From Ischnura elegans (taxonomy: Eukaryota; Arthropoda; Insecta; Odonata; Coenagrionidae), in the NCBI RefSeq assembly GCF_921293095.1, contig NC_060247.1, positions 56,889,111 through 56,953,110 of the forward strand: a stretch of DNA of 64,000 nt, written 5' to 3'. The translations under genes and the position numbers were made by a program. Shown one piece after another: positions 1 to 59,200 of this stretch; position 1 is the first letter of the stretch, and the number at the start of each line of letters is the position of its first letter. The notes beneath the pieces were generated by a model. That model had not been told where the DNA came from and made no database searches. It worked only from the letters and a program-made list of their open reading frames with translations.

Positions 1-818
1 TCTCGTGGTAGGATGTGGCCACGGAAGGAGGACTACTTCTACTCTAATTATGCGAAATCCACTCTCCTATGACATAGTTAGGGGCCTGACCCTGAGCGGT
101 GGCCATGTCAATAATTTACATGTTAATTGTAATTTATGATACAACTTATTTGAATACGAATTGAAAATTTTTCCTGATTGAAGTATTCCCTTCAGTCAAT
201 GAACTCACATTTGTATTTCTTGTACTAGTTGATATTTCTAAATTCAGTCTTAAGTGCCGTATAAAATTCTCAAGGTAATATCCTATTCCGAACATCGATG
301 ATAAATTTATGTCATTAAGCAATATATATTTAGGCCCATTGTTTTTTCCACTTTCTTCTATTTACTCCACTTTTACCTTTAATTTTCACTTTTAGGGCCA
401 TAGCGACTCCAATTCACGATTTATTAGTTATTTTATGGGATTTGATGCAGATTTAGGCAAATAAAAAACAATTTTTCTTTGTTATCGAATGTAAACTTGA
501 TTTACTGTAAAGCTGCTAAACCAGAATAATTCACTATCAAGGCCAAAATTTCTTAGCGATAAATTTGCCTAAATTTTGGCATGGGGGAACTTGTGTTGCA
601 ATCACGTGCTTCATTGGTTCCATAAGTAGATATGATTTAGTTTATGCCTCCTTGCCATTATGTATGGTCTTCATAACGTTCTATTTTTCTATCTTTAATC
701 ATCTGTAAATGGTATTTTTTTTAAATCTCAACACACGTTTTATGTTAAATATTATTGGGAGAGATGGAGTGGACTGTGATTAATTCAATGCAACTATTTA
801 TATCCATTATTTCTCAAG
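1..818. other. Non-coding stretch left of the first recognised exon
   Basis: AT-rich sequence with no exon, RNA gene or repeat that I can support. If the gene at 819-7787 has earlier exons, this is probably intron. The pyrimidine-rich run just before the AG at 817-818 looks like the end of an intron. No promoter motif stands out. Confidence 0.4.
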
Positions 819-1048
819 ATTTTGGCAACACGACCACATCCCTGGCCAGCCTCAGTGCCTGGAGCTCACTGATTGCTATCAAAGCAAAGATAGCGGTGAT
901 AATAGCGATATTTTGGGCCCTGGCATCCCTCTTCCACAAATATGTTGGATCAGTGAGTCTGTGCCGAACAGCTCCCGGGTATCTTCATAGCGATCATCAT
1001 TCCATCGGAGACTTGTACGGAAGCGCTGCATATGCCCATCCTTACCAG
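819..1048 (+). CDS. Exon A (internal, 76 codons plus 2 nt)
   Basis: Reads FGNTTTSLASLSAW, then the hydrophobic core KIAVIIAIFWALASLF, then HKYVG and a His-rich end, YAHPYQ. The donor CAG/GTGAGT at 1048/1049 is consensus and leaves phase 0. The left border is inferred from an AG at 817-818 after a pyrimidine-rich run; this frame is open further left to a TAA at 746-748, so an upstream start (ATG at 764) cannot be ruled out. Confidence 0.65.
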
Positions 1049-4000
1049 GTGAGTAGATAGAATAAGGTATTAATCATACTTGATGGAGGAAAGTGGCTAG
1101 AGGACGAAAAGTTTCTAATAATCTTACCAGGTGGATTTGTATGGGAATTTCAATATTACACAAGTTCTTTTACATCAACTGTGAAGTTTCGCCAGGTTGT
1201 GGGAGATTTTTAAAAAATCAAATTTTCTAACAAAAGCAATATTTTAAATGGATTACATAAAATTTTTTACAAACTGAAGAAAAATAACTCAAAGTTGAGT
1301 TAGGAACGATTAAATTGTGAACCCCTAAATTTTCTCTGTCTAAACGTTTTAGTATTGATAAAGCCATCCCCCCTTCCTTTGAGGTGACATCAATGAAGGA
1401 GGATGAATGTTTTACATTCAGATTAAGGACTTCAAACAGCAACATATCATCGTGTAGCACTCTTGGGTAGGAATGGAATAGGATTGTTTTTAACGGCTGA
1501 ATGGTAATGTACTCTTAATTTCAAGGTTTATTGCAAGTGCATTTCGTAATGGTGACGAGCGGCGGTGCTCATTACAAGTTATGATGGAAAGTGATGCAAA
1601 GCGTAGTATTTTTGGTTCGAATGGGTTGAAATCTGAAATGTAAATTGATGAATTTGGTGCGTGTTATTTCAAGGGAAATAGTTTTATATTTGGCTATTTC
1701 CGTACGTTGAAATAAGTACATGCTGATGCAGTTATTCTTGAAATTACTAAGTCGTATAATAAATCGTCTAGTATCGCACCGATAACTAATTTTATCGAAT
1801 CGTCTCTCGAACTAGACCAAATATGTATTTGTAAAATAGGATAGGGCTATTTTGAGTTGAGACGCGTGTCAGCTATGACGAAGAACTTCGTAATTTAGTG
1901 AAATTACCTCGAGTGAATTAAATGATTAGGAAACTCAAAACAATTTTAAATAAAGCATGAATTCACCAGTTAACGAATATTTACTTGAAAATTTCATTAC
2001 TCAGGATCAGTGCTGCAAACCAGGAATTATAGCGGCGTATCTTTATTATTTTCGATGAATTTGGTAATTTTCCGTTCTTCACGTAAATTCACGAATATGG
2101 ACACTGGATTTTCAACGTCTTGTCATGGGTGATGCCAAAATATATCGCTCCAAGTTATAAAATTCATAAATCACCCAAGGCAATGAGTGAACGATATCAA
2201 TGTAGCCATAACATGCTCGTCGATGTAGCCATGTTTCCATAGAGATTTACTTCAGGACCACCAATATTAAATTCGTCTTCCCACTTATGAGATTTTTTTC
2301 TTTAATCGACGATGGATGAAGATAAAAAAAATCGTGAAATGCATGAAGGCTTGTAGGATGTAGTCACAGGGGGGTGGAGGGTTTGGGATTCTGCCTATGA
2401 CCTTCTACGCCATAATCCGACGAAAATCCAGGATTTATATTCGTGACGTAAAGTAAAGTGGTATTACATGTATTATGAATTTGAAATTGTTATCACTCTC
2501 CTCTACTGTATTTCGTCTTTTCGACTTGCACCATCTAGGAATCGCCTCACTCCTACTCGTCATACAGCACTCCCGTAAGTGGACGTCCCGGCAGGGTAGA
2601 AATGGAGGAGGAATCATCCCCATCTGCGTTCTTGAAAGAAATGGTGACGTTGACTTCGGAGAGGTGAGACTCAAGGGTTATTATTCTCTGCACTTACTGA
2701 TGAGAGCCTGCATTTGTGTATTTGTAGCTCGCGATAATGATTGGCTTACTGAAATGGGAGTGATATATAACTCAGCCGTTCTGAATATAATTTTAAGCTT
2801 CAGATAGCTTTTCAATAAAGCTATTTTCAGAAATTTGATGAAAGCCCCTTCATGCTGTGAATCTATATTTATTACAGAATAACCGATGGAGTACTTTTGT
2901 CATTTTCCATTGCTTTTATAGTGCATACCACCAACAAAAATATATTATTGAACGCATTAATGCACCACTTGCTATGTTCCGTATATTGGTTTGATTCCTA
3001 ATTCGCTCGAACATCATTTTACTGTGAGGATACTTTAATTTTCGGCTGAAATTAGTTTCTCAGAGGTAGTCTTGTATATTTTCACTGTAGGAGAATGAGT
3101 TAGTGTGATGTAGTGAATTTCTATCACTTGGGACTGAGAATAAGGCTTTACTTGAAGGCTTTTCATCCGAAATACGATCCCTAATAGTATAATGGATGGG
3201 GGCCACCTCAAACAAAGCAATATATCTTAAACGAACAGTAAAGTGAGTCACCGAACCGTAGTTTCCATTGTTTGTACCTTTAGCCTGTAGCGATATCTTT
3301 TAGAATAGCATTTTTTCAACTAGTTTCTCCGTCATCGTCCTACGCACTTGAATTTACGTAATGGCTCTGTAAGACCTCATCAGTCGTCCTTTTCCTGTCA
3401 AGTATTAACGATTTTAATTTGAAATGCATGGTGGAAGTCTATCGGAGAATGTAAAACTTAAATAGAGCTATACTTCCTGGTTTGTGTTATATTTTTTGCT
3501 TTTAACTTTTGCCACTATATGTAAGGTGATTCATAGTCGTGTACAACCTTCTCCGTAAGCAGCATTTCTATTTTTTTATTACATATGAGGCATCCGGCAT
3601 AAATGTTAATCTCCCTCAACAATTAATTACAACTAGACGAATTTACATTACAAGAAACAGAAAGATGTAAAATTAATGCTCTTAATACTGAAGTTGGTAC
3701 ACCTATTAGGAGACTCATTCAATAGGGTAGTTTCCTTCATCAAAGAAAACGAAAAGCATTGATTGCGATTCGTTACCCACCATTAGTGTATTCAAAATAT
3801 ACGAATTATTTCGTTTTAGAAATAGCGGTTTAGACGAATGGCAATGGTCCATTTTTATCCTCATTTGAAAAGGGCCAGATTGGCGCCCATGCGATGCCAC
3901 TCCACGTGACGTCACAGGGACCTAGTTTCTATACGAGAAGATAGGAGTTATACATCGTCTGAGGTTACCAATGCATGCATAAGGCGCAGAGCTCAGGGAA

Positions 4001-7000
4001 ACATGTCTTAATAATCACTTATTAAAACTGGCTAAGGTCGGAAAGTTTTCTTCATTTGATAAGGTATTAATAATCCTTATTTAAGCCAAGCGCTACCAGA
4101 CAGCAGGGTACTCAGCTACCCGCTAGCAGCCTGCGTCGTATCGGCGCTCAACTCGCCTCAAGGTCACCTCACAGGGCGGAGGCGGGAACCAGAAATACGT
4201 CACACGGAGAGATTTCCCGGCATTCATACTTACGCGTCGCGTTTTAGCGCGCTTGAACATTTTCACTTTTCATTTAATCACGAAAAATAGATATCGCCAT
4301 TTAAAAATATAAAAGCGTGAAATACCTACTCCAGGAGTAATAATTTTTTGATTTAGGCAATAAAAAAATAATAGGAAACCACCCTATTGCATGCTACTTT
4401 GAAAAAATCGTATGAGCATCAAACAGCGCTTTTTAAGGCATGCAGAAAGATCCATATGTGCACAAAAACAATTTGTTGAGGTGATTAACTTAATATGTAG
4501 AAAGAGGCAATAGATATTATTTAAATTAAACCTGAGACTAATAAATGGTCATTTTTTGGATAGCAATGGCCTATTGAATGATGCGTAAGTTCAGTAATCG
4601 GGTAAAATTTGTTGCTGGAAACGACAAATTAATTTTGGTAGAACAATAATGTTATCGGGGCGCACTTAACTGTAACACATATTTTAAATCAGCTCGTAAA
4701 ATAGGAAGATGATAATTTCAATTCCATGGTGAATAATTGAACTCTTTCCCGGTTTCCACAGGCTTGCGCTCGCCGATGTGGTGTTTGGCGCTATAAGCGA
4801 AGAAGGCTGCCGCCGCCGTCTCCTGTGCTGGCTCTCCTCGGCCTACTCAGACATCTTCGGAACAACCTCCTCTGCCTCTTCGGAATACAGTGGTGGAGGG
4901 TAAGAACAGTAAAAATGTTATTTATATGCAGTATCTTCTTTTTATACCTTAATAATTATTATTTAGTTTCATCTCTCGAGACTTACCCCCAAGATTTGAA
5001 ACTAGAAATAATATTAATTGTAGCAATGCCTCACTGTTGGGATTTTTGTCTGTAGAAATTACTTTATATTTTTATTTGAAGGATAAATTACCGTATCCAG
5101 CAGTGTTGCCATTTTATAGCTGTTATGTAACAATATATACATTTGAGGACATACCTGTAATATAACAAGAAGAAGCAAGAATAAAATTTACAAAAAAGAT
5201 AAATAGAATCGGAAATGATGAAGCTACTTAGGTGACAGATAGGAGAGGGAAAGGCTTATAAAGTATTTGAAACTCTGCTACATATTTATGATATTTTATG
5301 TTTCTTCCGCATCTAAAATGTTAATATCATCATTATTCAAAGAGACCAAAACCTCGGAAGTTAAGAACTACGACGTAGGAACGTCAACCAATGTGACAAT
5401 TACAATCGAAGACCATGTTAACGACGTTTTGAGCTCTCGTGCCTCGTGTTTGGATGTAACATTACCCGTCATTTATTACACGGGTTAAAAAGCGGAGATA
5501 TTTTCTGGGTAAATAACCAAAATTTATAATTTCCCGGGCATTTATACATAATACAATAATCATAATCTATAATGGATCACTTAAAATGTAACGGCGAGAG
5601 GTACAGTGGCGTTGAAGTTGGGATTTCCTGAGGAACGGATTTCACTCTCGAATGATATTTTATTAAATTAAAATCAAGTCCTTTTGAAAATCGGTGGGTT
5701 TTTAATGTACTTTAGTGATCAGTGTGTCACCGAAACTGCTTAGAGCTCGTGCAAAATTTGGGGGATTTTATTTCGCCCAGACGTCCATTTCACAATTGAA
5801 ACAACGTCAGCTGGGTTAAAATTGGCGCTTTCTGGATAACTTTGGTCCAGAGACATAAAATACTGTTCTGTATTTTACTATTAGCATTGAGTTACCGACT
5901 TAGTTATTGCATCAGTCGACAGGTAGCATCATTATATTCGCCCGTGAATAAAGGTCTATACAGGGACCCGAATAAAATAAATTCATAGCTTAAAATCAAG
6001 GAACACTTGAAAACAGTATAAGTACTTAAGGCCGCTATACACGATGAATGATCATGCGAATAATCATGCCGAATGATCACGTGATCATTCACAGGATCAT
6101 GCGAGTAAAATAGAACATGTTCTAATTTTCACTGAATGATCATGCTCATGAAGGTTCATTCGCCAATTGTTCCGTCATACACGGCGAATGATCATGCTGA
6201 ATGATCATGCGAATGAAATCATTCGCCGTGTATGGCGGCCTTAAGAGATATTTATTGTGAGGTATCTTTGCTCCAACGCATGGTTTAGAACTAGATTTGT
6301 ACGTTTTAATTAGGTTGATCCAAAGTTACCCCAATTCAATTGGACCAAATAAAAAAATCCTGGTTTTTATAATAGTTAGAGATTCAGAAACCGACTTTTA
6401 TTTTAGGCACATGATCTATGAATGACTTTAACCTCATTATATACATTGTTTATTAATTTTAAAGTTTGATAGGTTCAGTGGCGTAACTGGGAATATGCTT
6501 TGGGGGGAGGGGGGGGGGGGGGTAATGAGATGGAATGGGGAAGGCCGACCTTCCACCCTCTGGCTATCAACATTAATATATCTGGATTAATATTCTCTTG
6601 GGTAACTTATTCCTGGAGAATAATATTCTTCCACCTGACTACATCGTGGATTCCTGTAAAACCTGGAGAATATTCTCAGGTGGCTATTCAAGTATCACGT
6701 AGCTAGGTGTCAGGCATTTACATTATTGACCATGTGATTTTAGGAAAATTTTGGAAAAATGACATGCCTGCAAAATACATTTTACATAATTTTAGCACTT
6801 AAAATTTGGGTTCCATTAAAAGCCTACGCTAAAATTTACTATAAGTCAAAACTAGACAATAGTTTTGAATATTATCTTTATTTCTCTGAGGCTTTAGGGG
6901 GGATCTATCCCCCTCGCCCCCCCATAGTTACGCCCCTGGATAGGTTTGTTTGTTTCCAAGAAATCAATAAATGTTGGGCCAAAGTTAACCCAGAACATCA

Positions 7001-7787
7001 GGAGAATTAAGCGTGATGGAGTGGAATTTTTCCATAAAGAAAGAAACACTTGCAATTTTCCACAATTATGTACTTTTATTTCGAACGAGGTTTCGAGGTT
7101 ACTACATCACATTCAAGGTAAAAAAATAGTTGGTTAATGGTTGGTTGAATACCATTTTGTACCTTGAAGATGTTGTAGTAATTTCAAAACATAGGTCAAA
7201 ATAAAAGTACATAATCGTGGAAAATTGCAAATGATTCTTTCGACAAAGTTACCCCAATTGACGGTAACGAATTCATCTATTTGATGGCCTTTTTGGATAA
7301 AAGTAATCAGCCGTAATACGTAATCGCGGGCAGTGGCGTAGCCAGGGGGAGGGTCTGGGTGGTTCGAAATATAAAGGCAAGATTATTTTCCTTAATAAAA
7401 GAAAACAAATTATTGAAAAATCATGACTTTACAAAGTATTTTTTTAACAAATGAAGATTTTTCGATTGTGAAAAGTGTTAAAATTAGTTTAAATTCATTA
7501 CTTAGTACCCTATCTTTAAAAACTTTTTCCCCCCTGGTTTTGGACCCTCCCGAACGAAATTCCTGTCTACGTCACTGATCGCAGGGCACCTCATGATAGA
7601 TGAAAGAATAATATAAAAAGTTAGGTGGTTAGACTTTTTTTGATCCTGTGCTTTCACTTACAGTATCCCATTTTCCATTGGAGACGGAGAATGCTCGCTG
7701 AGCGACGAGGATGGAGATTGCCCGGCGTCCCGTCTATCCCGAGCGCTCTCCGCCCTCACAAAACACCGGCCCGACTCCACTGCTTGA
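819..7787 (+). CDS. Uncharacterised four-exon protein gene (3' part), probably membrane or secreted
   Basis: Exons 819-1048, 2539-2663, 4762-4899 and 7664-7787 join in one frame. Introns begin GTGAGT, GTGAGA and GTAAGA and end in AG; the phases (0, 2, 2) fit at every junction, and the frame closes with TGA at 7785-7787. This encodes about 204 residues. Order: a Ser/Thr stretch; a hydrophobic segment of about 20 residues (core KIAVIIAIFWALASLF) that is probably membrane-spanning; a His/Tyr/Ser-rich stretch (SDHHS, YAHPYQ, SPHSYSSYS); an acidic linker; a helical block with two Cys (ADVVFGAISEEGCRRRLLC); a Ser/Gly linker; and an acidic Cys-bearing tail ending HRPDSTA. The layout recalls insect-restricted extracellular or cuticle-associated proteins such as the Osiris-like group, but I do not recognise the family and assign no function. 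The start codon and first exon(s) are not identified; the left border is inferred. The three introns hold one ~660-bp MITE, one short MITE and two hAT elements. Confidence 0.72.
1049..2538 (+). other. Intron between exons A and B
   Basis: AT-rich intron of about 1.5 kb starting GTGAGT and ending CTAG. I saw no repeat or RNA gene in it. Confidence 0.65.
2539..2663 (+). CDS. Exon B (internal, 125 nt)
   Basis: Follows a pyrimidine-rich stretch ending CTAG and is followed by GTGAGA. Read in phase 0 from exon A it gives ESPHSYSSYSTP, then VSGRPGRVEMEEESSPS and AFLKEMVTLTSE, with 2 nt left over. The leftover AG joins the first G of exon C to make Arg. A GTAAGT lies inside the exon at 2575-2580, but using it would break the frame into exon C. 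Confidence 0.7.
2664..4761 (+). other. Intron between exons B and C
   Basis: About 2.1 kb, GTGAGA to ACAG. Holds one full-length copy of the ~660-bp MITE (3725-4384). The rest is AT-rich and shows nothing recognisable. Confidence 0.65.
3725..4384 (+). mobile_element. ~660-bp MITE, copy 1
   Basis: Non-autonomous DNA element with terminal inverted repeats starting GGGTRGTTTCCT and flanked by TA on both sides, which suggests a TA target duplication. No coding capacity. The body holds a conserved block with CACGTGACGTCAC (about 3904), which joins an E-box-like CACGTG to a CRE-like TGACGTCA. Three more copies of almost the same length lie in the window (35209, 39074 and 53804). The superfamily is uncertain; a TA duplication would suit a Tc1/mariner-type source. 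Confidence 0.8.
4762..4899 (+). CDS. Exon C (internal, 138 nt)
   Basis: The acceptor is TTTCCACAG and the donor GG/GTAAGA. In the phase set by exon B it reads LALADVVFGAISEEGCRRR, LLCWLSSAYSDIFG, then a Ser/Thr/Gly-rich end. GC content and codon use stand out clearly from the AT-rich introns. The two Cys, six residues apart, flank an Arg triplet. Confidence 0.78.
6028..6242. mobile_element. Palindromic MITE rich in GAATGATCATGC
   Basis: Inverted termini AAGGCCGCTATACACG and its complement (about CGTGTATGGCGGCCTT) flanked by TTA/TAA. The ~215-bp body is built from repeats of GAATGATCATGC, which contains the self-complementary TGATCA, so the whole element can fold. The termini resemble those of the MITE at 37261. 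The flank suggests a 3-bp TWA duplication as in PIF/Harbinger, but TTAA cannot be excluded. Confidence 0.7.
6476..6938. mobile_element. Non-autonomous hAT element 1
   Basis: Starts CAGTGGCGTAACTGGG and ends in the complement of CAGGGGCGTAACTATGGG. It is flanked by a perfect 8-bp duplication, GATAGGTT (6468-6475 and 6939-6946), the hallmark of hAT insertion. The 463-bp body lacks transposase. It carries a long G-run near the left end and a nested copy of a ~148-bp repeat (6582-6730). Its right part matches hAT element 3 at 34280 in opposite orientation (shared GGATCTATCCCC block). Confidence 0.88.
6582..6730 (+). repeat. ~148-bp repeat, copy nested in hAT element 1
   Basis: Nearly identical to 7855-8001, with only a few differences. 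It contains short internal palindromes (CTGGAGAATAATATTCT and GGAGAATATTCTC). One copy is inside a hAT element and the other in the 3' UTR region of the four-exon gene, so this is a dispersed unit in its own right. Confidence 0.75.
7331..7577. mobile_element. Non-autonomous hAT element 2
   Basis: 247 bp. Starts CAGTGGCGTAGCCAGGGGGA and ends in the complement of CAGTGACGTAGACAGG. The flanking 8-mers ATCGCGGG (7323-7330) and ATCGCAGG (7578-7585) differ at one base and look like an aged target duplication. No coding content. Confidence 0.82.
7664..7787 (+). CDS. Exon D (terminal, with stop)
   Basis: The acceptor is CTTTCACTTACAG. The first T completes a Gly codon begun in exon C. Reads IPFSIGDGECSLSDEDGDC, then PASRLSRALSALTKHRPD and STA, then TGA. 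Two Cys lie in an acidic context. A 247-bp hAT element ends only 86 bp upstream of this exon, inside the intron. Confidence 0.78.
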
Positions 7788-7854
7788 AACACTGTCTCTG
7801 GCACTGGAAAGGGTGACGACGCTCATTCGCCTACATCTTGGTTTCGTGCTGAAC

Positions 7855-8001
7855 CTGGATAATATTCTCTTGGGAAACTTATTCCTGGAGAATAATATTC
7901 TTCCACCTGGCTACATCGTGGATTCCTGTAAAACCTGGAGAATATTCTCAAGTGGCTATTCAAGTATCACGTAGCTAGGTGTCAGGTATTGATATTATTG
8001 A
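7855..8001 (+). repeat. ~148-bp repeat, copy in the 3' UTR region
   Basis: Matches 6582-6730 in the same orientation. Ends with the shared GTAGCTAGGTGTCAGG and a TATTATTGAC-like edge. Lies within 70 bp of the stop codon, so it is probably transcribed. Confidence 0.75.
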
Positions 8002-8671
8002 CGATTATTATTACGATATTATTGTGATCGTCTATTATCATACCATGTTTGGTAATTACTAAAATCACTTCAAATCTAACTTTTTATATAGTTAGTAAAA
8101 AGACATATCTATAGGAATTGCAGTCTAGACACGAACGTAATTCTTAAGGGTAATTATTTTAGTAAGAAATCAAATAAGTTTCCACACCCATTAAGCCCTC
8201 GTTAAGACAACGGAATCCCATCCCTTCTTCCCGATTAAGGTAAGGCGACGTGCTTTAGTGATGACTTCCCATGCTGCGGGGCCGGGTTCAATGTTATAGT
8301 GTTGCTGAATGATGGCTAAGATTTTTAGTAGGTATAATTTGGGCGTAGGCATTCGATGCTGCTGCGTGGGTCGATGTTAATGGCAATTTTATATGTTATC
8401 GGTGTCTCAATGTGTTGCAGAGTACTTTCTTCTGAAATCAGCTGGGACAGTAAAAATCAGTCGGGGTGATTATAATAAAGACAGTTCCAGTAAGCATCTG
8501 GTGATATGCACGCCCAAATGATAGTCTACGGTTTCTGCAAAAAGGAAAAGGAGAAATTTCGCCATTGCTTCCCAATCATGAATATAATTTTCATCAAATC
8601 ATTTTATTCATTGCACCAGTGTTCCAAGTTTTGAATGATGCTTTCGGTAAAGAGTCATGCGTTACCATGTA

Positions 8672-8677
8672 AATAAA
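8672..8677 (+). terminator. Candidate polyadenylation hexamer 1
   Basis: AATAAA in the context TGTAAATAAAGTATATTATT, about 0.9 kb after the stop codon. Confidence 0.35.
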
Positions 8678-8989
8678 GTATATTATTTACGGTGAGAGAC
8701 GGAATGTGAATGGAAAATGAAATTGACATGGAAAGTGAAAATTTAGAGCTGATGCCGAGGATCAGTCACAAGTGAATGCTGAAACTCTAGAACTTCATCA
8801 TTGGCTGGTAGTCGAATTATAATGGGCCATCACACCATCAACTTTACACCGAAAACATTTCTATCGCAGTGATAAGCCTTGTCCTATTGACATTTTTTCA
8901 TTCTGTGAAGCTAATGGAGACTTATATTAGTGATGTTTAGTATTCTACAAGTCTACGAATTTTGTAAATGTAATCTGCGTCACCTTGTA

Positions 8990-8995
8990 AATAAA
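8990..8995 (+). terminator. Candidate polyadenylation hexamer 2
   Basis: AATAAA in the same TGTAAATAAAGTATATTATT context as the first, about 320 bp further on. The two 30-bp blocks differ at only two bases, so the signal appears duplicated. Confidence 0.35.
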
Positions 8996-9006
8996 GTATA
9001 TTATTT

Positions 9007-10728
9007 GATTTTTTTGTGTTCAACTAATGTAAGCTAAAAACTTTTTTTAAATTTAAAGTTAAATATAAATATTTTCCAATTTTAAGCAAACATTGCTCTA
9101 GTAATTGACCCTCTTTTGTGGACTAAAGGTTCTTTTTGGACCTTGGTTGTAGTTGTTATCGAGACGAATCAGTAAATTTCTATTGATAATGAACGATAAA
9201 ATTGTTTCTCTTGTAGGATATTTCTGAATAACCACAAAAGAAAGAATTGGTTCCCAGAATAATAAGTACCAAGGTGAGGGTTGGATTGCGATGTCAATCG
9301 CGTGATGTAAGCGAAAATATAGCCGAATATAAGTTATCTTTTTTATTTAATGGATACGTAAACGTTTGAGAGCCAGATATTACTCCGTAATTTCCTTGTG
9401 CATTATTTTCCGTCGAGGAAATGCACTTATAGGCATTTGTATAATGAGCCGTATATAGTATGGGATCCCATTGTTTTTTTGATCAAATCTGGTTTGTGTT
9501 TTTCTGGGGTGTCGATCAAATTGTCAAGCGATCGCCTCAATAATAATCGAGAGGCTAATTTTAATTCTGTTCTCTCTATTCCGCATACAATCATCTTTAA
9601 TTCCTTGGTTATTTTTCCACTGTTTTCGTGGACACACATTATTAATCGTGTTCAGTGAGTCCTGTACGTCTTCATCGTTTCCTACCCCGTTAGCGACCTC
9701 CATTATCAATTCATAGTGTAGTATTGGCGCCAGCCCCTGGGCCGAGGGCTCTCAATGGAGTCGCGTGTGATTAAAAAAAGAATCGAGGGTGCTGCTCCGA
9801 AAGAATGAAATGATAGGAGCGGAGGGGAAGGGCAGTGGTGGGGAGGAGGGCAGGGGAGGGAAAAAGAGGTGGGGGAAGTTGGAGGAGGAGAGGGGGTTGT
9901 GGCCGGAGGGCGGGGCCACATGGTGAGAGGGAGGGGTGGGTTGGCACGGGTGCCGATGAGGCGTGATTCCTGTGTCCCTATAAAAATCCTCAAACCACTC
10001 CTTCTCTCTCTCCCTCTCCTCTAATTCCTTTTTCTTGATGACAGATTCGCTCCTCCATCCGCCTGAGTCTCCCACCATCTCTAAAATGCGTATTTTTCTA
10101 GTATATTTTACGTCTAATCATGCTGAATAATTCGATGCGCATTTATTTCTCGGTTCCTACGAAGTAATGAGCATTTCTGTAGTTGAAATTTTATGGTAAA
10201 AAATATGTTTACCGAAAATAAATAACGTACTTAATTAGTATATAAGTCTGCGGATCAGAGACCGGGAATCTTTTTCCGTCTGACGAGGTCAATTAGTTCA
10301 CATTGGTATGGGGACGTGGGGTAAAACACCTCGAATTTCGCTGGTATTTTCAGAAATTATGGTGTGTATGTACGAAGTTTAAGAATGTTCGTAGATTTTT
10401 TCACGACTTTTTGTTGTTAATGAATTATTGATTTTTATTTTTGTATTAAATGGAGTAAAATAATCAAGGCTTGTGTAAGGCAATTTTTGAAATGGTTACT
10501 TGCGTTATTGCTTCAATATGACGGTGAATTATACTGCAAGACTGCCCGTTCCTCACGGGAGAGTAAAACGGGGTATTATATTTGAGGAGAGGCTCGGAGG
10601 AGAGGTTTAGTTTTAAGTAAAGTTCTATGGTTCGGATAGGAGGCAGAGTTAAGTCAAAATGACGGGAGGAGTGCGCCTGGATCAGAGGCATATCCGAGGG
10701 ATATTGGGTTGTAGTGCTTAGGTTCAAT
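9007..10728. other. Intergenic stretch with a purine-rich block
   Basis: Mostly AT-rich with nothing recognised. From about 9800 to 9950 the + strand is almost entirely G and A with many GGG and GGGG runs (G-quadruplex potential), followed at about 9980 by CCTATAAAAATCC, a TATA-like string. ORFs here are Pro-rich low-complexity frames of the complement and are not credible genes. Confidence 0.5.
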
Positions 10729-27024: not shown

Positions 27025-30000
27025 ATGTCATTGAAGTCCTCTGCCAAGTATGACCATTATAAATTGAGGCAGAGTTTTATTAATGCAATCGAACGTGTAA
27101 TGCGATCATTTCTATTACGTGCATCGGTACATAGTATTGCAATCTTAAGATTTGTGTATTGCAGCCCTCCATTTATCCGTATGCCAAGCTAGTTCTTTTC
27201 CTCCCTCACGCTCTTATTCCCCGTATCATCCCTGCTATTTTCCATAATCATATCGGGGTGGATAGATTTCTTTTTCTATATAGGCATTTCTAATTACACA
27301 AGATAAAATATCAAAGGTCTAACGTTATAAAATTGCAATTCATGTATGTAAATTCACTTTTAAAAAATTAATGAAATACTTTTTTTACCGATGCCTAAAA
27401 TTTAGACATTCTTAATCACCGGATGTTTTGCATTACTCAAATTATGATTCATTCATATGAAAACACCGTGAGGGAAGTGGTGTTCTCGGAGAAGAATCAG
27501 TTCATTTTTAAAAATACCTCTCCGCAGTTTAGACTGCTCTTCCTTTTTGATGGATGGGAATATGAAAATCCACTCCGCCTCTCTTAATGGCCGTCCATTA
27601 TACAGAAGTTAGGGCTCTATGTCGACTTGAGCGATACGTTTTTCCGGGGAAAGAATGGGAGGCGAGGATGTTCTCGCGCTCACAAACAGAATGTGTGGAA
27701 GGAAGAGGTGGGTGGAATATTTGGGGTGTAAGGAGGAATGGGTTCGGCTGTTTTATTGGCAAGATGACGGCAAGAGTGGAAGTCCACGAGAGTGAGTCGT
27801 CAACAGACTAGAGAAGAGAAAGGATGTCGGGAAGAGGGAAGTGTGTTCTCTTGACAATCGGATCTAAAAGCTAAAACGGAGTGGATTGAAGAGGCTCCCA
27901 AGGGCAGTATTAGTTTGGAGAGTCTCAGAGAGGATGGAAATAAGTTACAGGGATAGGATAGTTGAAACACAAGGGTAAACCAGCGACTAAACTAGGAAAC
28001 AACTTCGGGGGTTGTCAATGGTTCATTGAAAACTTTTCTGTTATTTTTGCTGGTCTCGTAATGAAATTTTTTCCTCGAAACTATGGAATATGAGGAATAT
28101 AAGGCTGGCAATGTACAAAATTTTCTAATGATTACCTCAAAAAGAATATTTTCCGAATCCCATTTTGATCTCGGGCATGGATTTAAAAGTGCTTGATATC
28201 TCCCAGAACAACAATGGCAATGAGACAGTGAAAGGTTTAAACTTATGCTAATAGCGTGTCTGACAGATTTCGGAATTCGTTTTCCCGAAAATCTGCTTTC
28301 AGTAGGTATGCTAAATGTTCAAATGCCTTGTTTCACGTGCGAATAAATTAGCTATGCAAATGCATGACGCCTACGTTCCGGAATTACTTATGTAGTCAGG
28401 TAAAGTAATGCACATATTTTGTCAGAGAAAGTTTTAAATACCAAAAAGACTCATTTTCTATCATAGGGTTCCAGCACCTTTTATACGCAAAAATTCCCAT
28501 GTAGTTAAAAAAATTACTCGATATCCTTTTCACCTCTTATGCTTATTCTCTTGTGCGCCTCATCGATCTTACACATCGTCCTTATTTGTATAATATACTT
28601 AGATCCCCCTTCTTGAATATTCATTTTATGAGAAAAAAACCTTTAAGATGATGAAGTTTATTGACAGAAAAATGGTTAATTCGGTTGTGTTCGTGCAACA
28701 CAATCGAATTAAACATATTCTTTAACAATTTCACGTCATAGAGAAACAATTGGAAGAGGCAACTTTTGATGGCGTATGATTGTGTTATTTTCCTCATTTG
28801 GAATGCATGAACTATCGTATTTCCCCGCTAATCGTGCGAATTGACGTGAAAGATATTATCCTTGCTCCCTCATCTAGAGGGAGTAGTTCCGTCCATTTGG
28901 GAAGAATGGTTTCCCAACCCCTCTTCCTTTGTTTTCTTTGGGGTCGCTTTTCTCTCGGCCTCACTCAGAAACTCTTTTTTCACCTCTCCACTCTATCCCC
29001 ATGGACTTCGTTTCAGTGTTTGTGTTCTGTGACTATCCAGGCAGTGTATACAATCCCATACTGACTTTAGCTTCTATTTCCAAGTGTTTCCATTGATAAA
29101 GTCGCCTAACCTACGCTTGGAAAATTGAGGAAAATAGTCTCTAGAACTGGAGAGAAGAAAAAACTATTTTAAATCCTTGTATTTGGCGCTAAGAGCTTAA
29201 ACTGGCGAAATTACAAAAAGTAGTTCACTCATGAAATAAGTGAAGTTATCATTATTTCTGCTCGTCAACAATACGTCGTTGGCCTTCCAATCCATCTATA
29301 TATTGTGTGTAATAATTCCCTTTCCTTCAAAATCCCATATCGAACATCTGAAGTCTATTTTTATCTTCATTCAATGTATAATTATTCCTAAATAGTAGAT
29401 TTCTATCGGATCAAATTGATGAACTTCATATCAAATACATTATTATGTAGCCTTCTGATTTTTGTGTCGTCTTTCAAGAGTAATTCTTATTTTAGGAATA
29501 CATCATTCTCTAGCCTCTCCATAAAACCTGGTATTTAAAGTTTATAAAGGATCATACTATTGCCCAACCATTACTGTGCCAAAATTTTCTTTTCAGATTC
29601 GATCTCCTTCTTCTCTTTTCAAAGAGTTTCCAAATTCCGTAAACGATACGTCGTTCTTTTTTCTTTCTGTCTGGTGTGGGTGCCACCTCTTTTTTCCACC
29701 ATAGTCTCATTCCGAACAATTTAAGTCTATTTTTATCTCCTTACTTCAGGTTTAAACGACCATGTTTTTGTAGATAAAAATGAGCACCTCGAAAAAATAG
29801 CGAAAGGTTTAAAAGTTTAGCGAAAGGTTTAAAACATTTGGAAGTTTTTTTTCATTAGCATCGAAAAGAACGTGAAAAATCGTACTACGTCATGAGATAA
29901 CAGAGTGGAAAGCAGCATCAAACCAATATTACTATTGTTGAACTGTGACGATGATGATGACTATGGTTTATATATTTTTAAGGAGTATTCCGAAATCGAC

Positions 30001-30419
30001 TTTTCGAAAAAAAATGGTCAAAAACGTTTTGCGCAAGTCCTGCTGGGGCCATAATTGAGTGAAACTGATTATGTTAATCTACATTCTGTAATTTATTCTG
30101 GGTTTTATGTTTATTAGTGACGTATTGAAATAAATATCTTGTGATTTTTCACGGAAAAAATTTTTCGATGTTTATACATCATATTCAAGATAGCAACGTC
30201 GAAACCTTGAGTGGAATAAATTTTATATCGGCGGAAAATTGCAAAATTTAATTTAAATATGGTAAAATTCCACTCCATCACGCTTGGATCTTCGAATATT
30301 ATAATTTACGTTGACTATTCATCTTCTTTGACCTCACATCCTGCGAAAAATGATCGCATCAAATCTTAAGAAATTAAGTTACGTTCGGTCGTATTTATGT
30401 CGCACGAAAAGTGTAAACC
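27025..30419. other. Intergenic stretch, nothing coding recognised
   Basis: AT-rich apart from a mildly GC-richer part at 27550-27900. Contains a 16-bp hairpin at 28676-28712. No exon, tRNA or element could be supported. Confidence 0.4.
28676..28712. other. Hairpin with 16-bp arms
   Basis: Arms TTAATTCGGTTGTGTT and AACACAATCGAATTAA (one mismatch) flank a 5-nt loop. It could be a short cruciform or a remnant of a transposon end. No T-run or gene lies beside it. Confidence 0.5.
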
Positions 30420-31140
30420 ACGCGTTTATACACTTCACCCCATTGCTCCATCACCATTGTCCTCACCCTCGTCTCTTTCTAAGTCCTTCTCCTCCTTGAT
30501 CTCCCGCACCTCTCTCGCCTGTACTATTCCTAGCGAGAGAGCCGAACGTGTCTTCATCTCATAAAAAAATACCAAAGCCTTCCTCCCCTCCTTTCAGCCG
30601 CCACCCCCGCTTGCTTTCCCACATTCTCACCTCTCCCCCTGCATCCCCTCTTGCCCACCCCATATATTCCCCCTTCCGGTCCACCCCACCCCCTCCTCCC
30701 CGCGTAAGAAGAGCGCATATGAGAGGGTGGGCCGGTGGAGGCTGTAGTTCGCATCGGGGAGAGGTTAAACGGCCCCCTATTAACTTAAAAGAACATCTCC
30801 TTCCGTTAGCCGCGCTTGTGCATCATGCCCTCATCCCACTCTTGAAGAACGCGGGGTAGGGGAGGAAACCACCCCATCTAACCCGTGGCGGCGTCGAATG
30901 GGGAGCGTCTCCGTGGGGTCGTCTTGGTTTCGGGTCGGTCGAGTGCTGAGGATACGTGCTACGTGGACAAAGTGAGATGCGTCGTCGCGTCTTCCGTCTC
31001 TATCTTTCTCGTCCACCCCTTGCTGCTCCCACTCTCTTTAACTTCTCAAACGGAGAGTGGTGTCGCCGAGGGTGAATGACGCGGGTATTTTTGGGGGAGG
31101 ATTGCGAGGGGCGAAGGGATGCCGGAGGTCTTTTACGGGA
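30420..31140. other. GC- and CpG-rich island
   Basis: Clearly richer in G, C and CpG than its surroundings. A pyrimidine-rich left half (30460-30710) leads into a CpG-dense right half (30890-31090). Such islands in insect DNA may mark a promoter or enhancer, but no exon or core promoter motif is readable, so the role is open. ORFs here are low-complexity Pro/Ser/Arg frames. Confidence 0.4.
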
Positions 31141-33059
31141 TGCACACGAAATGGTTTGGGGTGCTACTAGAAAAATCTGAGGATAGGTGGCGCCAGGATT
31201 GTGAGTAGGTCGGTGTCTGTGAATTCCTTACCGAAATTTTGTAATAAATACCGTTTACGAATATCTGAGGATTATGAATATGAGGAGGTTTATGAATATA
31301 TGGGGATTTTTTTCGGTTTAAATAACGCATTAAAAATTAATTATTTATGACAATATTATTATTTATCATATCATATATTATTATCAAAACAATTCATAAT
31401 GAAATGTGGAAATTTTCAGAAGTAAATTTTTCCTAGGCTTTTTTTCCGAATAAAAAATAAAAGGACGTACTAATTCGGATCTTTTATCATGGGGTTAACT
31501 ATATGTACTCAATCTACATTTGGACCCTGGAGAGGAGTAAATTTTCCCGATTCCAATTGAAGGAGCTATGTGTTTGTGTTGATTGGTCGTTTCCTTCCTT
31601 TTTCTTTTAATTTTCTTTCCATTTTTCTCTTCCTTTTTCTTTGCATATCCGGCCTCACATGCAATGATACAAAAATCATCAAAGGCAATAGAGCTTTATC
31701 TTAATAACTACTGAGTGTTGCTGTTTTTTTTAACTAGGTGGCATGTTTAAGAAAATTTTTGTCATAATTGTTTATTTTAATATTTCAAAATTATTATTAA
31801 ATTAGTAAATTTCGGGTGCTGATGGTTGGCTAATTATCCCAAGCCTTACAACTTGTTTTCATTTATTTTTAACCTACCAGTATATATCCCTTTTAATTAA
31901 TTCCATCTTTCAGACGATATAGGATGTGATTTACTGTTGCAATGGATTTCTGTAAGTATATCATTAACTCAGCAAATGGCTAGCAATTTTTATTTCCTCA
32001 TTCGTTATTGGTTAAACAAATTCTACGGTGATTCGATGTTGACAATAAATTACAATTATTCTTAAGTATTAGACGCCCAATTATTGAATACATTATTAAC
32101 TTACTAAGCAATTATAACTGTACTAAATGTTGCCCATGATGGTTCAATATTTTTAGGAAATGATCAATATCTCCTTGTTTAGTACCTTCTGTTTCATCAA
32201 CTCATGGGGTATTTCCTGTCGGTAAGCCTCACTTTTAGAGAAATCTTTGAACTTGACCTCGATGTTTCTTTCAGCGTATCACCTACGTGAGACTGTTGAT
32301 AGTGAGAGATTTTTTTAGCACCTCTTCTATATATCAGAGCATCCATCTGCGGAAAGCGCTGTTGTCGGAAACATGAGCGACTGCAACTCGGATGACAACT
32401 TCGTATCGCTGCGACTTGTGTGACTTTCTGGAGATCTGCACCAGGGTACGAGGATGATTCAGTGGGGCGACGAGAACCCTGAACATTGAAGAATCGGGGT
32501 AGTTTAACGGGAGACTGGAAAGAATTCCAAAGGGATTGGGATGGAAGAAAGGAAGTTTATGCCACTGGTAGTCGTTTTCTCGTGGCAGTGACGGAGGGGG
32601 GATGTGGGGACATATCTCGTTCACGAGGGGATATTACGCAGACACCGGCGTCTTCCCTATGGTGTTTAACTTTTTTTCCCCCGCGGGAAAAACAGAAGAG
32701 TCTGAGACTCGTCCCCTGCGGTGACTATACGCGTCCCCCGTTGTTAGTACTCAATTTACGACACGTTGAACAGCTCGGATGCTAATTTCCTCTCTCGCCC
32801 TGCCCACTCGTTAGAAATCGGGGATGGTTAACGTTCCCCGTGCCCAACATTGATGTGTGTTTCTATTGAAACCAGGTCTCACATCTTCTGAGGTATGTTA
32901 AACCTCTTTCTTGGATAGTTATTCTTTTCTAATTTCAGTGTCGAAGAATGAAACCATAGATTATAGGTAGGAAAGTCCATTCTCAAAAATAGTGAAATTT
33001 ATTTAATACTAGAAACTATACTCATACTAATGCTCAACTGGGGCGAAAAAATCAAGGAA
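31141..33059. other. Intergenic stretch, nothing recognised
   Basis: AT-rich, with a GC-richer patch at 32340-32800 holding overlapping unsupported ORFs. Confidence 0.4.
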
Positions 33060-33150
33060 AGATAATAATATAATAATAATTTATTTACTCCTACATTTTG
33101 ATTTTACAGCTGAATACAAGAGAAGAAAGAGAAGGAGCCTTAGCTGGTCT
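33060..33150 (-). repeat. Possible LINE 3' tail, minus strand
   Basis: On the minus strand, CAGCTGTAAAATCAAAATG, then GTAGGAGTAAATAAATTATT and TATTATTATC: a short 3' UTR-like stretch ending in a trinucleotide tail. No coding part seen. Confidence 0.3.
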
Positions 33151-33659
33151 CCAAGGTAATAAGATCAGAATTGAGCCACCATCAAATGACAAAATGTATG
33201 CCAATAAAAAAAATAATGCAGTAAATGATACATGAGTGTTTTAAATAAATAACATCAAAATAAATTTTCAATTATTTCTTACTAGAAAAGCCAGTCTTTG
33301 GTAAGTCGTAACATTTTATTTGGTGATTTAATTTATTTTAATTTTAGCGGGAAACGTTTATATAATGTTAACCTTGGTCTGTTTGTTAGTACACATGACT
33401 CACTCCTTAATTTAAATCTGTATTTAACACATCCACTCGGCATACTGCTACTTGTGGCTTAAAACAATTTTAGGACTTATAATTCGAATAAATACAAATA
33501 CCTTAGTGGCAACAAGGCATTTGAATTCATTAAGCAAAGATATAGTTAATACGTCTTCAAAGTAGATAAAATTATCTTGATATAATGATGACAATGCCCT
33601 TTTATTGGTATAATGCTGGAATTTTTAGCTATTTGCTTTGCTTTTATTGATATACTGCA

Positions 33660-33725
33660 GCAGAGGCAGAAACCTCGACGAAGATCCTGTGGGTCATTGG
33701 ATGTATTAAATAATCCTTGTAGTGC
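33660..33725 (+). repeat. ~65-bp direct repeat, uninterrupted copy
   Basis: CTCGACGAAGATCCTGTGGG, then TCATTGGATGTATTAAATAA, is repeated at 34231-34279, where a hAT element has inserted at GGATGTAT and the repeat resumes at 34547. Confidence 0.65.
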
Positions 33726-34230
33726 TTGCGTGTCAAACACTCACCATCAATTTGGCTCAGAATAAATTTTTGTAATTGATCATAATTTGATACAATGTGG
33801 TTAACTACCTCATGACACACATATAATAAAAATGTTTCAATTCCAAGCATGGTGAAACTCTCATTTTTAATAAACAGGCATATGGTGGAGCAGCAAATGC
33901 TCACCACTGATTAGCTAACGACGTGTTAAAATTCTGTATGTAATCGAGAAAAACTGTGACAACTAAATGCATTTAACCATAAAATCTGAAAAACTCTTAA
34001 TTATTTATTAATTGATTATAATTTCACTCTTTCCCTTAAAGAAAACTCTTATCTTCGAAACGGAAAGTTCGTTAGTGAAGGATTGCCATTGTTGCCATAA
34101 AAATTATTATTTTGACGAGAGTATAATACGAGTAGGCTGAAAGTCGCAAAATAAAGGCTTTGTATAGTTGTGTTTCCATGGATTGAACTTTCAGCTGTGA
34201 TAAAGTAGATACGTTTTCTCTACTACTCAT

Positions 34231-34570
34231 AAGCAGAGGCATTACCCTCGACGAAGATCCCGTAGGTCATTGGATGTATCAGTGGCGTAACTATGGGTGG
34301 ATGAGGGGATAGATCCCCCCCACCCCCAAAGCCTCGGAGAAATAAAAAAAATTAACTATTGTCTAATTTTGACATTTAATAACTGTATCTGCTTAAAGTT
34401 AAATTTTTAGTGTCAAAAAGATGTAAAATGTATTTCCACTCAAGTCATTTTTCGAAATTTTTCCCGGACCCCCCGTTACCTGGGAGAGGGATCGCCAACC
34501 TAGGCCATTCCAACCCCTCGGAAGCATATTCTTAGTTATGCCACTGGGATGTATCAAATAATCTTTACCT
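34231..34570 (+). repeat. ~65-bp direct repeat, copy split by hAT element 3
   Basis: Shares CCTCGACGAAGATCC and GGTCATTGGATGTAT with 33660-33725. The hAT insertion at 34280-34546 divides it, and the intact copy shows the empty site. Confidence 0.6.
34280..34546. mobile_element. Non-autonomous hAT element 3
   Basis: 267 bp, starts CAGTGGCGTAACTATGGG, ends in the complement of CAGTGGCATAACTAAG, with a perfect 8-bp duplication GGATGTAT (34272-34279 and 34547-34554). Same family as hAT element 1 at 6476, reverse orientation. The related empty site is preserved at about 33700. Confidence 0.9.
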
Positions 34571-34597
34571 ACTATCATAAAATCACACAGGGCTTTA

Positions 34598-34868
34598 AAT
34601 AAATCGGCCACGGTGGCGGCGGGGATAAGTCCTCGCCTACCATGCCGAAGGTTGCGAGTCCCACCTGGATAGGTTGCCCCTTTCAAGACATGGGTATGTG
34701 TAATCGTCTGTTGTTGATTGTTTAAACTCCCGATGTAAAGGCCTCATTATGCTGTTTTCGGGGGTTATCGAAATAAATAAATAAACAAATAAATAAATAA
34801 CTCAATAAATGAATAAATTAATAAACAAACAAATAAATAAATAAATAAATAAATAAAGAAATAAATTT
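34598..34868 (+). repeat. tRNA-derived SINE with AAAT tail
   Basis: Head CGGCCACGGTGGCGGCGGGG (A-box region) and GAAGGTTGCGAGTCCCACC (B box), then a body with CCCGATGTAAAGGCC and GGGGGTTATCGAAATAAAT, ending in a ~95-bp tail of AAAT/AAAC units. A standard SINE layout, plus strand. Confidence 0.75.
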
Positions 34869-35208
34869 CAAATAACCCATTCTCGTGAGCATCGTGCAGG
34901 AAATTTGTGCGTTGTCCTTCGGCAAAGGCCGTCACGTGATCCCATTCAATTCTATTCCCGTTTCCGTTCTCCTTCCGCGTCTCTTTCCTCCAAACCGACC
35001 CACCATCCCCCTCCCTCGCTGCCAGTCCATTCAGTTACTGCTCGGGAGAGGAGAGACCCGTGTCCCTCCGTGGAGGTCATCGGCAGATGGTGCCTTGGGA
35101 AGTGATCCGTGAAAATGCTACACAGCCCTCCACGACGCAAGAGCCCCTCATCCCATCTATAAGGAAAACGCTCTCAGCTAACTGAGGCCACTCCTCCAAC
35201 TTACAACA
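34869..35208. other. GC-richer stretch between SINE and MITE
   Basis: Pyrimidine-rich with several CpGs. Overlapping unsupported ORFs on both strands. Nothing recognised. Confidence 0.35.
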
Positions 35209-38925: not shown

Positions 38926-38997
38926 AGCAGAGTGGCGCAGTGGAAGCGTGCTGGGCCCATAACCCAGAGGTCCGTGGATCGAAACCACGCTCTGCTA
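38926..38997 (+). tRNA. Initiator tRNA-Met (CAT), copy 1
   Basis: 72 nt. The acceptor stem AGCAGAG pairs with CTCTGCT, the anticodon loop is GCCCATAAC with anticodon CAT, the A box is TGGCGCAGTGG and the B box GGATCGAAACC. The initiator hallmarks are present: an A1-T72 start to the acceptor stem, GGG/CCC in the anticodon stem, and GATCGAAA in the T loop instead of TTCGA. Closely matches metazoan initiator tRNA-Met. Six Ts follow from 39000 and would end Pol III transcription. It would deliver the starting methionine to ribosomes. Internal promoters suffice, so no upstream element is required. Confidence 0.97.
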
Positions 38998-40991: not shown

Positions 40992-41063
40992 AGCAGAGTG
41001 GCGCAGTGGAAGCGTGCTGGGCCCATAACCCAGAGGTCCGTGGATCGAAACCACGCTCTGCTA
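40992..41063 (+). tRNA. Initiator tRNA-Met (CAT), copy 2
   Basis: Identical over all 72 nt to the copy at 38926, same strand, about 2 kb away. A run of seven Ts follows at 41066-41072. Flanks differ apart from the GATTTTTTT after the gene, so only gene and terminator are conserved. That fits selection or gene conversion on the gene itself better than a recent block duplication. Confidence 0.97.
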
Positions 41064-56245: not shown

Positions 56246-59200
56246 GACATGTTGGAGAACGTACTTGGCAAATGTTGATAATTAAACTGCGATATAAAGT
56301 AATTGACGTTTGAATCACGGATGTACTTCAATTAGCAGTACTTTCCAAGTTGTTGTGTGGAAATTAAGCAGCTCAATAGAGTTCACTACCGTGCGCATAT
56401 AACAATTGAATAACGTGGACAACTAATAATGTCAAGAGAGCACTCCAGTAGAAATAATTAAGGATTTCATTGGTTTTTAATCGATTATGGGGCATTTTTA
56501 AATTAAATAAACAATAATTTTTTCCTAATATATGCATTTAGTGCTCGTTTTTATGTCAGCATATGCTTATCACCATCGGTTTCGAACGTGATAGGCCGAT
56601 GACGCTGGCAGCGTGATGAAGAGAGCGATCACGGTTTCATAATCGCTGCTATCACCTTCCGTCGTGGGAATCGCGTTGCCCCTGGCAACGACATCGCTCT
56701 CACCCTTCTCACAGTTACATAATTAGGGTGCTGGTTAGGTTGATCATGGCATTCATCAGGCTATCCAGGGCGTGGGTACTCGTTTATCTTTCATTGTTAA
56801 GTTAAAAATCCTTATGCAAAAGGCCAAGTATGCTGTTTTTGGTGATGTAGGAATACATTTTTAAAAATAAACAAGATTGCTCGACTTATTTGCACGTGCG
56901 TTTTATCCGGAAACTGAGACCTAACGCTTAAACAACACGATATCTTTATGAAATGAATTTGATAATCTTCTGGATACTGGAGAAATTAAGTGTATGTGCT
57001 AGGCCTTAAGAACAGTTTGAATCGAAGTGTGAATTATTTTCTTCAAAGAGAGATACATTTAAATGAAAGTAAATTTCTCATAATAAATAAGTCACCGTTA
57101 CAACCGAATGTTCTCGTTAGACAATTCATTAAGGGAGTCTATCATTACTTCAGTTAACTTTTGTAAACAATCAAATTAGAGCATTAACAAAACGCAATAG
57201 AGGTTACGTTTCCACACTATCAAAGCCACTATGGGCATGCTTACAGGATCCATAGAAAAAGACCAACGTCCGTGGCTCGTCTACCGGTCAAGGTGATGGA
57301 ATATTCATTATTTTTTTATTTTTCGTAATTGAGGTTAATACCAGCCAGCAAAGTTTTTCGGGCATTTTTTTACGTTTGCGAGACGAAATAATTACAAAAA
57401 AATTAACATTTAGGCTGACGTTATATCGAAATATGCATAGTGAATATAGCCAAACCAAAAGTAGGTAAAAAATCTAAAATACTGGCATAATGGCGAACCG
57501 ATCCCTCTTTTGCATAAGAATCTGGAATGTGGTCCTTTCTTACCGTTAAAGAAGCCGGCGCAAAATACATTATCGTGCTTGAATCTGAATCTATGTTAGT
57601 TTCTTTGAACTGCTCTTATGTAATGACCTGTATCCGACTAAGTCTGTAGACACCATCTAGACAGTCTTCCTTGAGTTAATAACTGTTAGAAGATAAACTA
57701 TCATTGAGGATGATCATTTTGTGGAGCAATCATAATGTGAGACGAGATCATAATGTGAGTTATGTGTTGTTATGATAAGCAAATTTATCTACGAAAAGTG
57801 GAATGGTGAATGTGATGGACGCGAGGAAAAATTCTTCGGCCGACTTTAACGTAATTTTTACACTTCAGATTTCACGTTTGATTAGGCTGATTGCTGTTGC
57901 CATGTTCTTAGACTTAAGTAAAATTACGAATTAAGGTATAATAATTTATTTAACTCGTGTTTCTTCGAATTTTCATGGTGTATATCACTTACCTTTTAGA
58001 AATTATGACTCCATCTCTTCAATGCCTCGTATCTATCGAGCAATCAAATCAAAATGCCTGGTAGTAACAAAATGATGTTGTCAAAAATAGCTGTAATATT
58101 ACTCCTTCAATTTATGCATTTATAGATTCAAAAGCTCACTTTATTCGTAATGGTATTTTACGTTGAAGAATAAAAGAGATTTACTGTACGCGGTTTCTTT
58201 GCCTATAATATCTGTAAACGTAACTTTTGCCGTATCTTATTTTTTTCCATTTCTGCTTGTGTATTTTGGAGGCGTTGTGGAGTTGAGGGGGTAAAGGTAA
58301 TAAGTAGTCATGTAAATATAACACTCGAGATATATTTTATTAGAAAAAGTATATTTTGTGGCCATACATTCAGTTCTTGGAACACATAAAAATATCTGCT
58401 AGTGAATCATAAGATATTCGTTGATACGGCACGATAATTCAAGGCACCAATTCCACTTAATCTATGAAAACAGGAATTTAGCGTATGATAGTGTTACATT
58501 ATATAATGAAGTTGATAGGTCCTCATAATTAATTTTTTACCGTCTAATTATGACCATCTAACTATGTCCTCTGGCTTTCAGCACTTCACCACTCAGTTAT
58601 AGAAATTATAGATTTTTTGGTATAAAACTTCATTTTTGCCACTCAGTCATTTATTAAGTCCTTCATCAAATTCTTCCTCTTTATTCAATATTCATTTTTA
58701 TGCGAACCGTAACATTATACCTGCATATGAAATCATGGTTGTTTCCTTCAAGTCACTGTCTTCCCCATATATATGTCGGAGGGACACCAATGGCTATATC
58801 TCTGATTGTAAGACAAAACACACTAGCAAATCATCTTCAAAAATTCTTTCAATCCATCCTCAGAGCAGATCCACAATTCAGTCCGATTGCTAGGGTTATG
58901 ATGCTGAGATTCTGTTTCTACTGCGACAAATTTGCCTAATTTGCACCACTTCCATTAGGGATTTATCCGTGCGCATCGACCCCATTTGGTGTGATGGCTT
59001 GGAGGTAATTAAACCCCCATTGGAGGAATACTTTTGATTTTGCCCTAATAAATGATTTTATGCACCACATCCATCACTGCCATCATATCACTACCACCTG
59101 GTAGTGATGGTTTAGTTCTAAGTAAAAACATTGGGCCAAGGTCAAGGGTTCGACTAAGAAGAATAATGAAGAAAATAAACATATCCACTAATAGTGGCCT

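Follow-up and report, generated by a model that had tools for sequence, protein, structure and literature searches.

The window analysed here is a 64,000-nucleotide stretch of chromosome 2 of the blue-tailed damselfly Ischnura elegans (C2:56889111-56953110), and it carries four short forward-strand exons, apparently exons 2 to 5 of a gene whose exon 1 would lie just outside the window. All coordinates below are window positions unless a fetched locus (such as L007) is named, with coordinate 0 being the base directly left of window base 1. The proposed exons are as follows:

-752 to -626 (L007:9248-9374), + strand: candidate exon 1 of 5; ATG, signal-peptide-like start, phase-1 donor
819 to 1048, + strand: candidate exon 2 of 5, in-phase 1, out-phase 0; completes residue 43 and encodes residues 44-119, with an NTT glycosylation sequon, a lysine-flanked hydrophobic helix, Cys91 and a His/Tyr-rich stretch
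2539 to 2663, + strand: candidate exon 3 of 5, in-phase 0, out-phase 2; Ser/Tyr-rich, then acidic
4762 to 4899, + strand: candidate exon 4 of 5, in-phase 2, out-phase 2; predicted long helix with a GCRRRLLC block
7664 to 7787, + strand: candidate exon 5 of 5, in-phase 2; acidic with Cys217 and Cys226, stop TGA at 7785-7787

The four in-window exons are all present as first described, each preceded by AG and the first three followed by GT, and when joined from base 821 they read as 204 residues and a stop, with out-phases of 0, 2 and 2. The frame at 819 requires one base from an exon further upstream, and the four exons of the original prediction become five once exon 1 is counted. The splice sites, which had been taken as consensus throughout, proved uneven when ranked with rough weights (written from general knowledge and applied to the + strand of 164 kb). 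The three in-window donors deserve the description (1048 in the top 0.02% of GTs, 2663 in the top 0.23%, 4899 in the top 0.83%), with CAG/GTGAGT at the end of exon 2 and GAG/GTGAGA at the end of exon 3, and so do the acceptors at 4762 (top 0.4% of AGs, TTTCCACAG/G) and 7664 (top 1.1%, CACTTACAG), whereas those at 2539 (top 10.4%) and 819 (top 12.5%) are mediocre; the exon-1 donor ranks in the top 4.5% of GTs. Similarly, the phases do fit in only one way for these boundaries, but exon 2 is open in one frame while exons 3, 4 and 5 each have two open frames out of three, which makes the phase fit only modest evidence by itself. The claim that single-frame open reading frame (ORF) calls miss the gene has to be narrowed, as exon 2 lies inside a listed 101-residue ORF (755-1060). 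The guanine-plus-cytosine (G+C) content is 51-60% for the four window exons and 51-64% for all five, vs. 35-37% for the three window introns.

Codon usage was scored with a model built from 4028 codons of I. elegans kinase and Osiris exons. Of the 30 kinase loci fetched, 22 entered the training (seven with stops inside the match were left out, as was L049, a near twin of L048), together with all 12 fetched Osiris loci (12 fetched out of 35 matches). The frame used here has the top codon score in four of the five exons. For the joined coding sequence it scores +60.6 bits; the two remaining forward frames give -82.0 and +22.6, and no reverse-strand frame exceeds +7.0. Among stop-free control segments (from which the + strand of window 1-9000 was excluded, its reverse strand being eligible), the score of exon 1 (24.7) was equalled by 0.5% of 3682 controls, that of exon 4 (15.0) by 1.1% of 3178, and that of exon 5 (12.8) by 1.3% of 4048. 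Exons 2 (12.5) and 3 (-1.2 bits) are not significant singly, because 8.3% of 627 and 23.5% of 3777 controls, respectively, match their codon scores.

Exon 1 was sought in 100 kb fetched to the left of the window. The candidate starts with MTPAILLCLVAASSTLLPGTSA, and its in-frame join closes the protein, which then runs from an ATG through 247 residues to the TGA. Upstream on the same strand lies NOMO, recognised from one exon with the NOMO immunoglobulin-like domain (expect value, E, 3.6e-14) and another exon with a weak NOMO match (E 0.12). The last NOMO frame would end near L007:3075, a position read from the frame and from an AATAAA shortly after it rather than from a model match, and the new gene is taken to begin ~6 kb downstream of this presumed end. 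Between there and the window, only L007:9248-9374 has an ATG-to-phase-1-donor codon score of 24.7, and none of 48 other 7.7-kb segments (mutually overlapping, taken from elsewhere in the window on both strands) contained an ATG-to-phase-1-donor exon matching this score, the best reaching 15.6.

A crude dynamic-programming gene finder, which was not supplied with the predicted exons and whose exon penalties were rough values from general knowledge, found exons 1, 2, 4 and 5 with their exact boundaries at three of the four penalties tried (7, 9 and 11). At these three penalties the best chain at the locus scored 86.6, 74.6 and 62.6, ahead of all 30 other window segments (best 49.9, 38.6 and 30.6) and all 36 upstream segments (best 62.2, 50.2 and 45.9), the latter including parts of real genes and both sets being mutually overlapping. 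None of 200 shuffles (first-order resamplings in 300-base blocks) equalled the locus chain at any of the three penalties. Together with the first exon located left of the window, the gene finder and its controls make a good case for a genuine multi-exon gene.

The predicted protein is organised, in order, as a signal-peptide-like start, a sequon, a hydrophobic helix, a His/Tyr-rich stretch, a Ser/Tyr-rich and then acidic part, a C-x5-C helix and an acidic Cys-bearing tail. Hydropathy peaks over residues 1-19 (mean 1.63) and 61-79 (mean 2.06), and small residues precede a likely signal cut after Ala22. The Asn-Thr-Thr sequon is at residue 46, and the hydrophobic helix, at ~60-81, is accompanied by lysines 64, 66 and 83 and histidine 82. 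Five Cys lie past the signal peptide (91, 177, 183, 217 and 226), Cys177 and Cys183 being the C-x5-C pair of the GCRRRLLC block. The idea of a membrane or secreted protein, already present in the original prediction, is strengthened by the signal-peptide-like start that exon 1 appears to add to the second hydrophobic segment at ~60-81. Single-sequence structure models of two exons were single helices with low mean predicted local distance difference test (pLDDT) values of 68.6 and 63.1, the latter for exon 2, modelled as one helix over its residues 5-42 with a best ten-residue block at pLDDT 89; these models were kept out of fold searches, where such models give meaningless matches.

As the original prediction had anticipated, function could not be recognised by family. 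The 204-residue protein had no match among Pfam, NCBIfam and PDB sequences, nor did Pfam return any family for the 247-residue protein or for two fragments of it, in both cases at E up to 10, in searches where HMMER filters discard most weak matches. A paralogue was likewise absent from the whole I. elegans genome (1,722,721,009 bases in 110 contigs, with exon 3 as DNA and the 204-residue protein as queries): the protein gave five matches, of which four were its own exons and the fifth (L006) was a weak one (E 0.455), A+T-rich and with an internal stop, which we read as chance rather than as a paralogue. The product is probably a lineage-restricted, ordinary membrane or secreted protein with no match in the family libraries searched. 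An earlier I. elegans assembly with annotation by others is mentioned in PMC9975421, and the gene may therefore already be annotated.

The nearest build is that of the C-terminal half of Osiris proteins (DUF1676, PF07898), a resemblance which composition explains. In insects, Osiris proteins are membrane proteins in the secretory pathway of cells that secrete cuticle; they are described as acting in cuticle nanopatterning (PMC11151929, PMC12755865) and in tracheal tube maturation, with an endosomal localisation (PMC9870157). Shared by Osiris and the protein predicted here are a signal-peptide-like start, a lysine-bearing hydrophobic helix and a His/Tyr-rich stretch after this helix, as well as a helix exon that follows a phase-1 intron: the fetched I. 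elegans Osiris loci have a phase-1 acceptor in five of five second-half exons (L036 also has a second candidate acceptor, in another phase) and a phase-1 donor in seven of seven first-half exons. One Osiris protein, L028, also shares the string HSDHH at an equal distance from the helix.

On the other hand, in the gene proposed here three more exons follow the one with the helix, whereas each of the five fetched Osiris reading frames with the helix continues through the tail to a stop. The gene's position at 56.9 Mb is apart from the 35 DUF1676 matches on the same chromosome (at 37.3, 95.2 and 138.8-139.9 Mb). These matches form one large group (138.77-139.93 Mb), a small group (95.2 Mb) and a single place (37.3 Mb). 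Two of the five defining Osiris features listed in PMC3284338 are found in the protein, i.e., a hydrophobic N-terminus that is likely a secretion signal (residues 1-19) and a hydrophobic putative transmembrane domain (residues 61-79), and three are absent. The two-Cys region is missing, with no Cys between signal peptide and helix and the first, Cys91, coming after the helix; for DUF1676, the Pfam search was empty at E up to 10 and the locus falls outside the 35 genome matches; and no AQXLAY motif was seen by eye in the 247 residues, where tyrosines are present and the nearest string is SAAYAHPY. Because of these three absences and of the failed homology tests described below, the gene was not filed as Osiris.

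Taken together, we propose a five-exon gene for a 247-residue secretory-pathway protein with a membrane helix, used by cuticle cells. The first ~22 residues would be a cleaved signal peptide and the protein would therefore enter the endoplasmic reticulum; the helix at ~60-81, with lysines 64, 66 and 83, may then anchor it in the membrane or lay it along the surface. Outside the helix, the His/Tyr/Ser-rich stretch, the C-x5-C helix and the acidic Cys tail could act through weak binding, disulfides or cross-links. The most likely use would be in cuticle-secreting cells, with an Osiris-type action in trafficking or matrix patterning without being an Osiris. These parts are not equally secure: entry into the secretory pathway appears likely from the sequence, a cuticle or Osiris-like role, argued from build, is the leading but speculative suggestion and stands at well below even odds, and the explanation as a whole is put forward tentatively, at slightly less than an even chance.

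Several observations weigh against this reading. A cruder first score placed exon 1 third of 16, outranked by a 9-codon stretch and by what is presumed to be the last exon of NOMO, and at the lowest penalty tried (4) the gene-finder chain grew to eight exons, with small additional ones and with 850-1048 replacing 819-1048. The signal peptide and the membrane helix were assigned from hydropathy only, not by a dedicated predictor, no relative was found in Pfam, NCBIfam, PDB sequences or the damselfly's own genome, and the gene is read from genome sequence alone. A shared phase-1 intron is expected by chance one time in three. Of 1000 composition-keeping shuffles, 5 reached the pairwise score vs. 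Osiris L028, the best of five; for the four remaining pairs the counts were 76, 250, 152 and 318. The Osiris profile score was reached by 201 of 1000, with the exon-2 frame ranking 4th of 1776 six-frame segments by this profile (1st with the HMMER composition correction off). Finally, exon 3, which looks the least certain of the five exons, scores -1.2 bits in the used frame vs. +9.6 in another open frame, and a different middle scores 3.4 bits higher at penalty 9 (74.6 vs. 71.2). In that arrangement the gene is real but exon 3 starts at 2568 and is followed by a 35-nucleotide exon at 4446-4480 (or some other structure applies), which would make the Ser/Tyr-rich stretch “ESPHSYSSYST...” non-protein. 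The gene finder picks 2568-2663 plus 4446-4480 at penalties 7, 9 and 11, and the acceptor at 2568 scores 4.7 against 1.8 at 2539; yet these acceptor scores come from our own rough scale, an additional 35-nucleotide exon is required, and the exon 3 listed above carries the His/Tyr/Ser-rich composition of exon 2 on unbroken. A gap of 3.4 bits is beyond what rough splice weights can settle, and we consider a different middle unlikely overall, if the most credible of the competing structures.

That the locus is a gene at all we hold with high confidence. A non-working locus, whether open stretches lined up by chance, a gene in decay or a spliced non-coding RNA with G+C-rich exons, would fit the lack of homologues in Pfam, NCBIfam and PDB sequences and the insignificance of exons 2 and 3 when taken singly, but it is very improbable given a frame unbroken from ATG to stop, the best codon score for this frame in four of five exons, and a gene-finder score matched by none of 200 shuffles and none of 30 other segments. 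Even less probable is a protein starting at an in-window ATG at 764, which would make a four-exon gene that lacks the signal-peptide exon: no stop interrupts the frame after 764 and the phase is kept, but this form scores 45.6 vs. 71.2 for the five-exon one, and the added stretch 764-818 has 31% G+C and a codon score of -6.9 bits, such that we rejected this start on its lower score and poor codon usage. As for ancestry, the shuffle tests did not show homology to the Osiris C-terminal exons. It is a remote prospect that the gene is an Osiris remnant or sister outside the cluster, one that lost or never had DUF1676 but retained the phase of the intron, the helix and the His/Tyr stretch, with a Cys-bearing C-terminal module as a later gain; if true, this would reveal the action of the Osiris membrane half alone, in one of the oldest winged-insect lineages.

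A further possibility is a secreted soluble protein stabilised by disulfides, built on a C-x5-C helix core and working in the manner of the small Cys-motif proteins of DM4/DM12 type in insects, with the hydrophobic stretch buried rather than membrane-spanning. The signal-peptide-like start fits secretion, and both the damselfly protein and the DM4_12 family (PF07841) have two Cys five residues apart, this block being a predicted helix in the damselfly protein: the C-x5-C spacing of CRRRLLC occurs in all nine DM4_12 matches of the genome (e.g., CLLRAIC). However, the damselfly protein lacks the G-x-x-G-(R/K/Q) run-up present in these nine matches, and its block is followed by W where members have CE (eight of nine) or CM (one of nine). 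No Pfam family matched at E up to 10, the locus is outside the nine PF07841 matches, and homology was rejected on a profile-profile comparison giving 0.1% probability (12 columns and three identities, namely two Cys and one Arg) and on the six-frame segment containing exon 4 in the used frame (4733-4900), which ranked only 964th by the DM4_12 profile in a region of 1776 segments. The Cys count past the signal, five, is odd, and the hydrophobic core of 15 residues, with Lys/His on its flanks, resembles a membrane-associated segment, all of which makes a DM4/DM12-like soluble protein improbable next to the membrane-helix protein preferred here. The DM4_12 matches themselves are grouped, eight at C10 86.10-86.27 Mb and one at C4 91.77 Mb.

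Around the coding exons, two further sets of features were found on the same strand:

8474, 8672 and 8990 (8474 to 8995), + strand: three AATAAA poly-A-signal-like hexamers, from a pattern scan of 7788-9200
6588 to 6733 and 7860 to 8005, + strand: 146-nucleotide direct repeat, 95% identical, in the last intron and 73 bases past the stop; outside the coding region

One of the three hexamers possibly marks the 3' end of the gene. The last intron also holds a fold-back inverted repeat (7039-7125 / 7155-7241, with 87-nucleotide arms 84% complementary), and 7039-7241 is perhaps a small transposable element. To the left of the window (L007-L016), the upstream neighbours are a Glyco_transf_22 exon, an SNX17 FERM C-terminal exon and NOMO, at about -85244, -42315 and -50000 to -7000, respectively. 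Elsewhere in the window, an Rfam scan returned two transfer RNAs (tRNAs) only, at 38926-38997 and 40992-41063 (+ strand, ~2 kb apart, with an equal Rfam score of 57.7 bits). The longest ORF is at 59330-59800 (- strand, 156 residues, Ala/Arg/Pro-rich), the top gene-finder chain among the 30 other window segments is 57231-59747, at the place of this ORF but on the opposite strand (+ strand, 38.6 at penalty 9), and a chain at 27655-35185 that is Pro-rich in part (+ strand, 37.5 at penalty 9) comes second elsewhere in the window.

Overall, this is mainly a gene call, in which splice phase, codon usage and neighbouring sequence lead to a closed model with a predicted secretion signal, where searches of protein libraries gave no hit. 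The orphan gene is probably real and probably ordinary, and exon 1 and the putative secretion signal extend the original prediction. A wider interest, for the patterned cuticle of insects, hangs on an Osiris resemblance that failed homology tests. If confirmed, the gene would give the damselfly genome one more orphan member of the secretory pathway.

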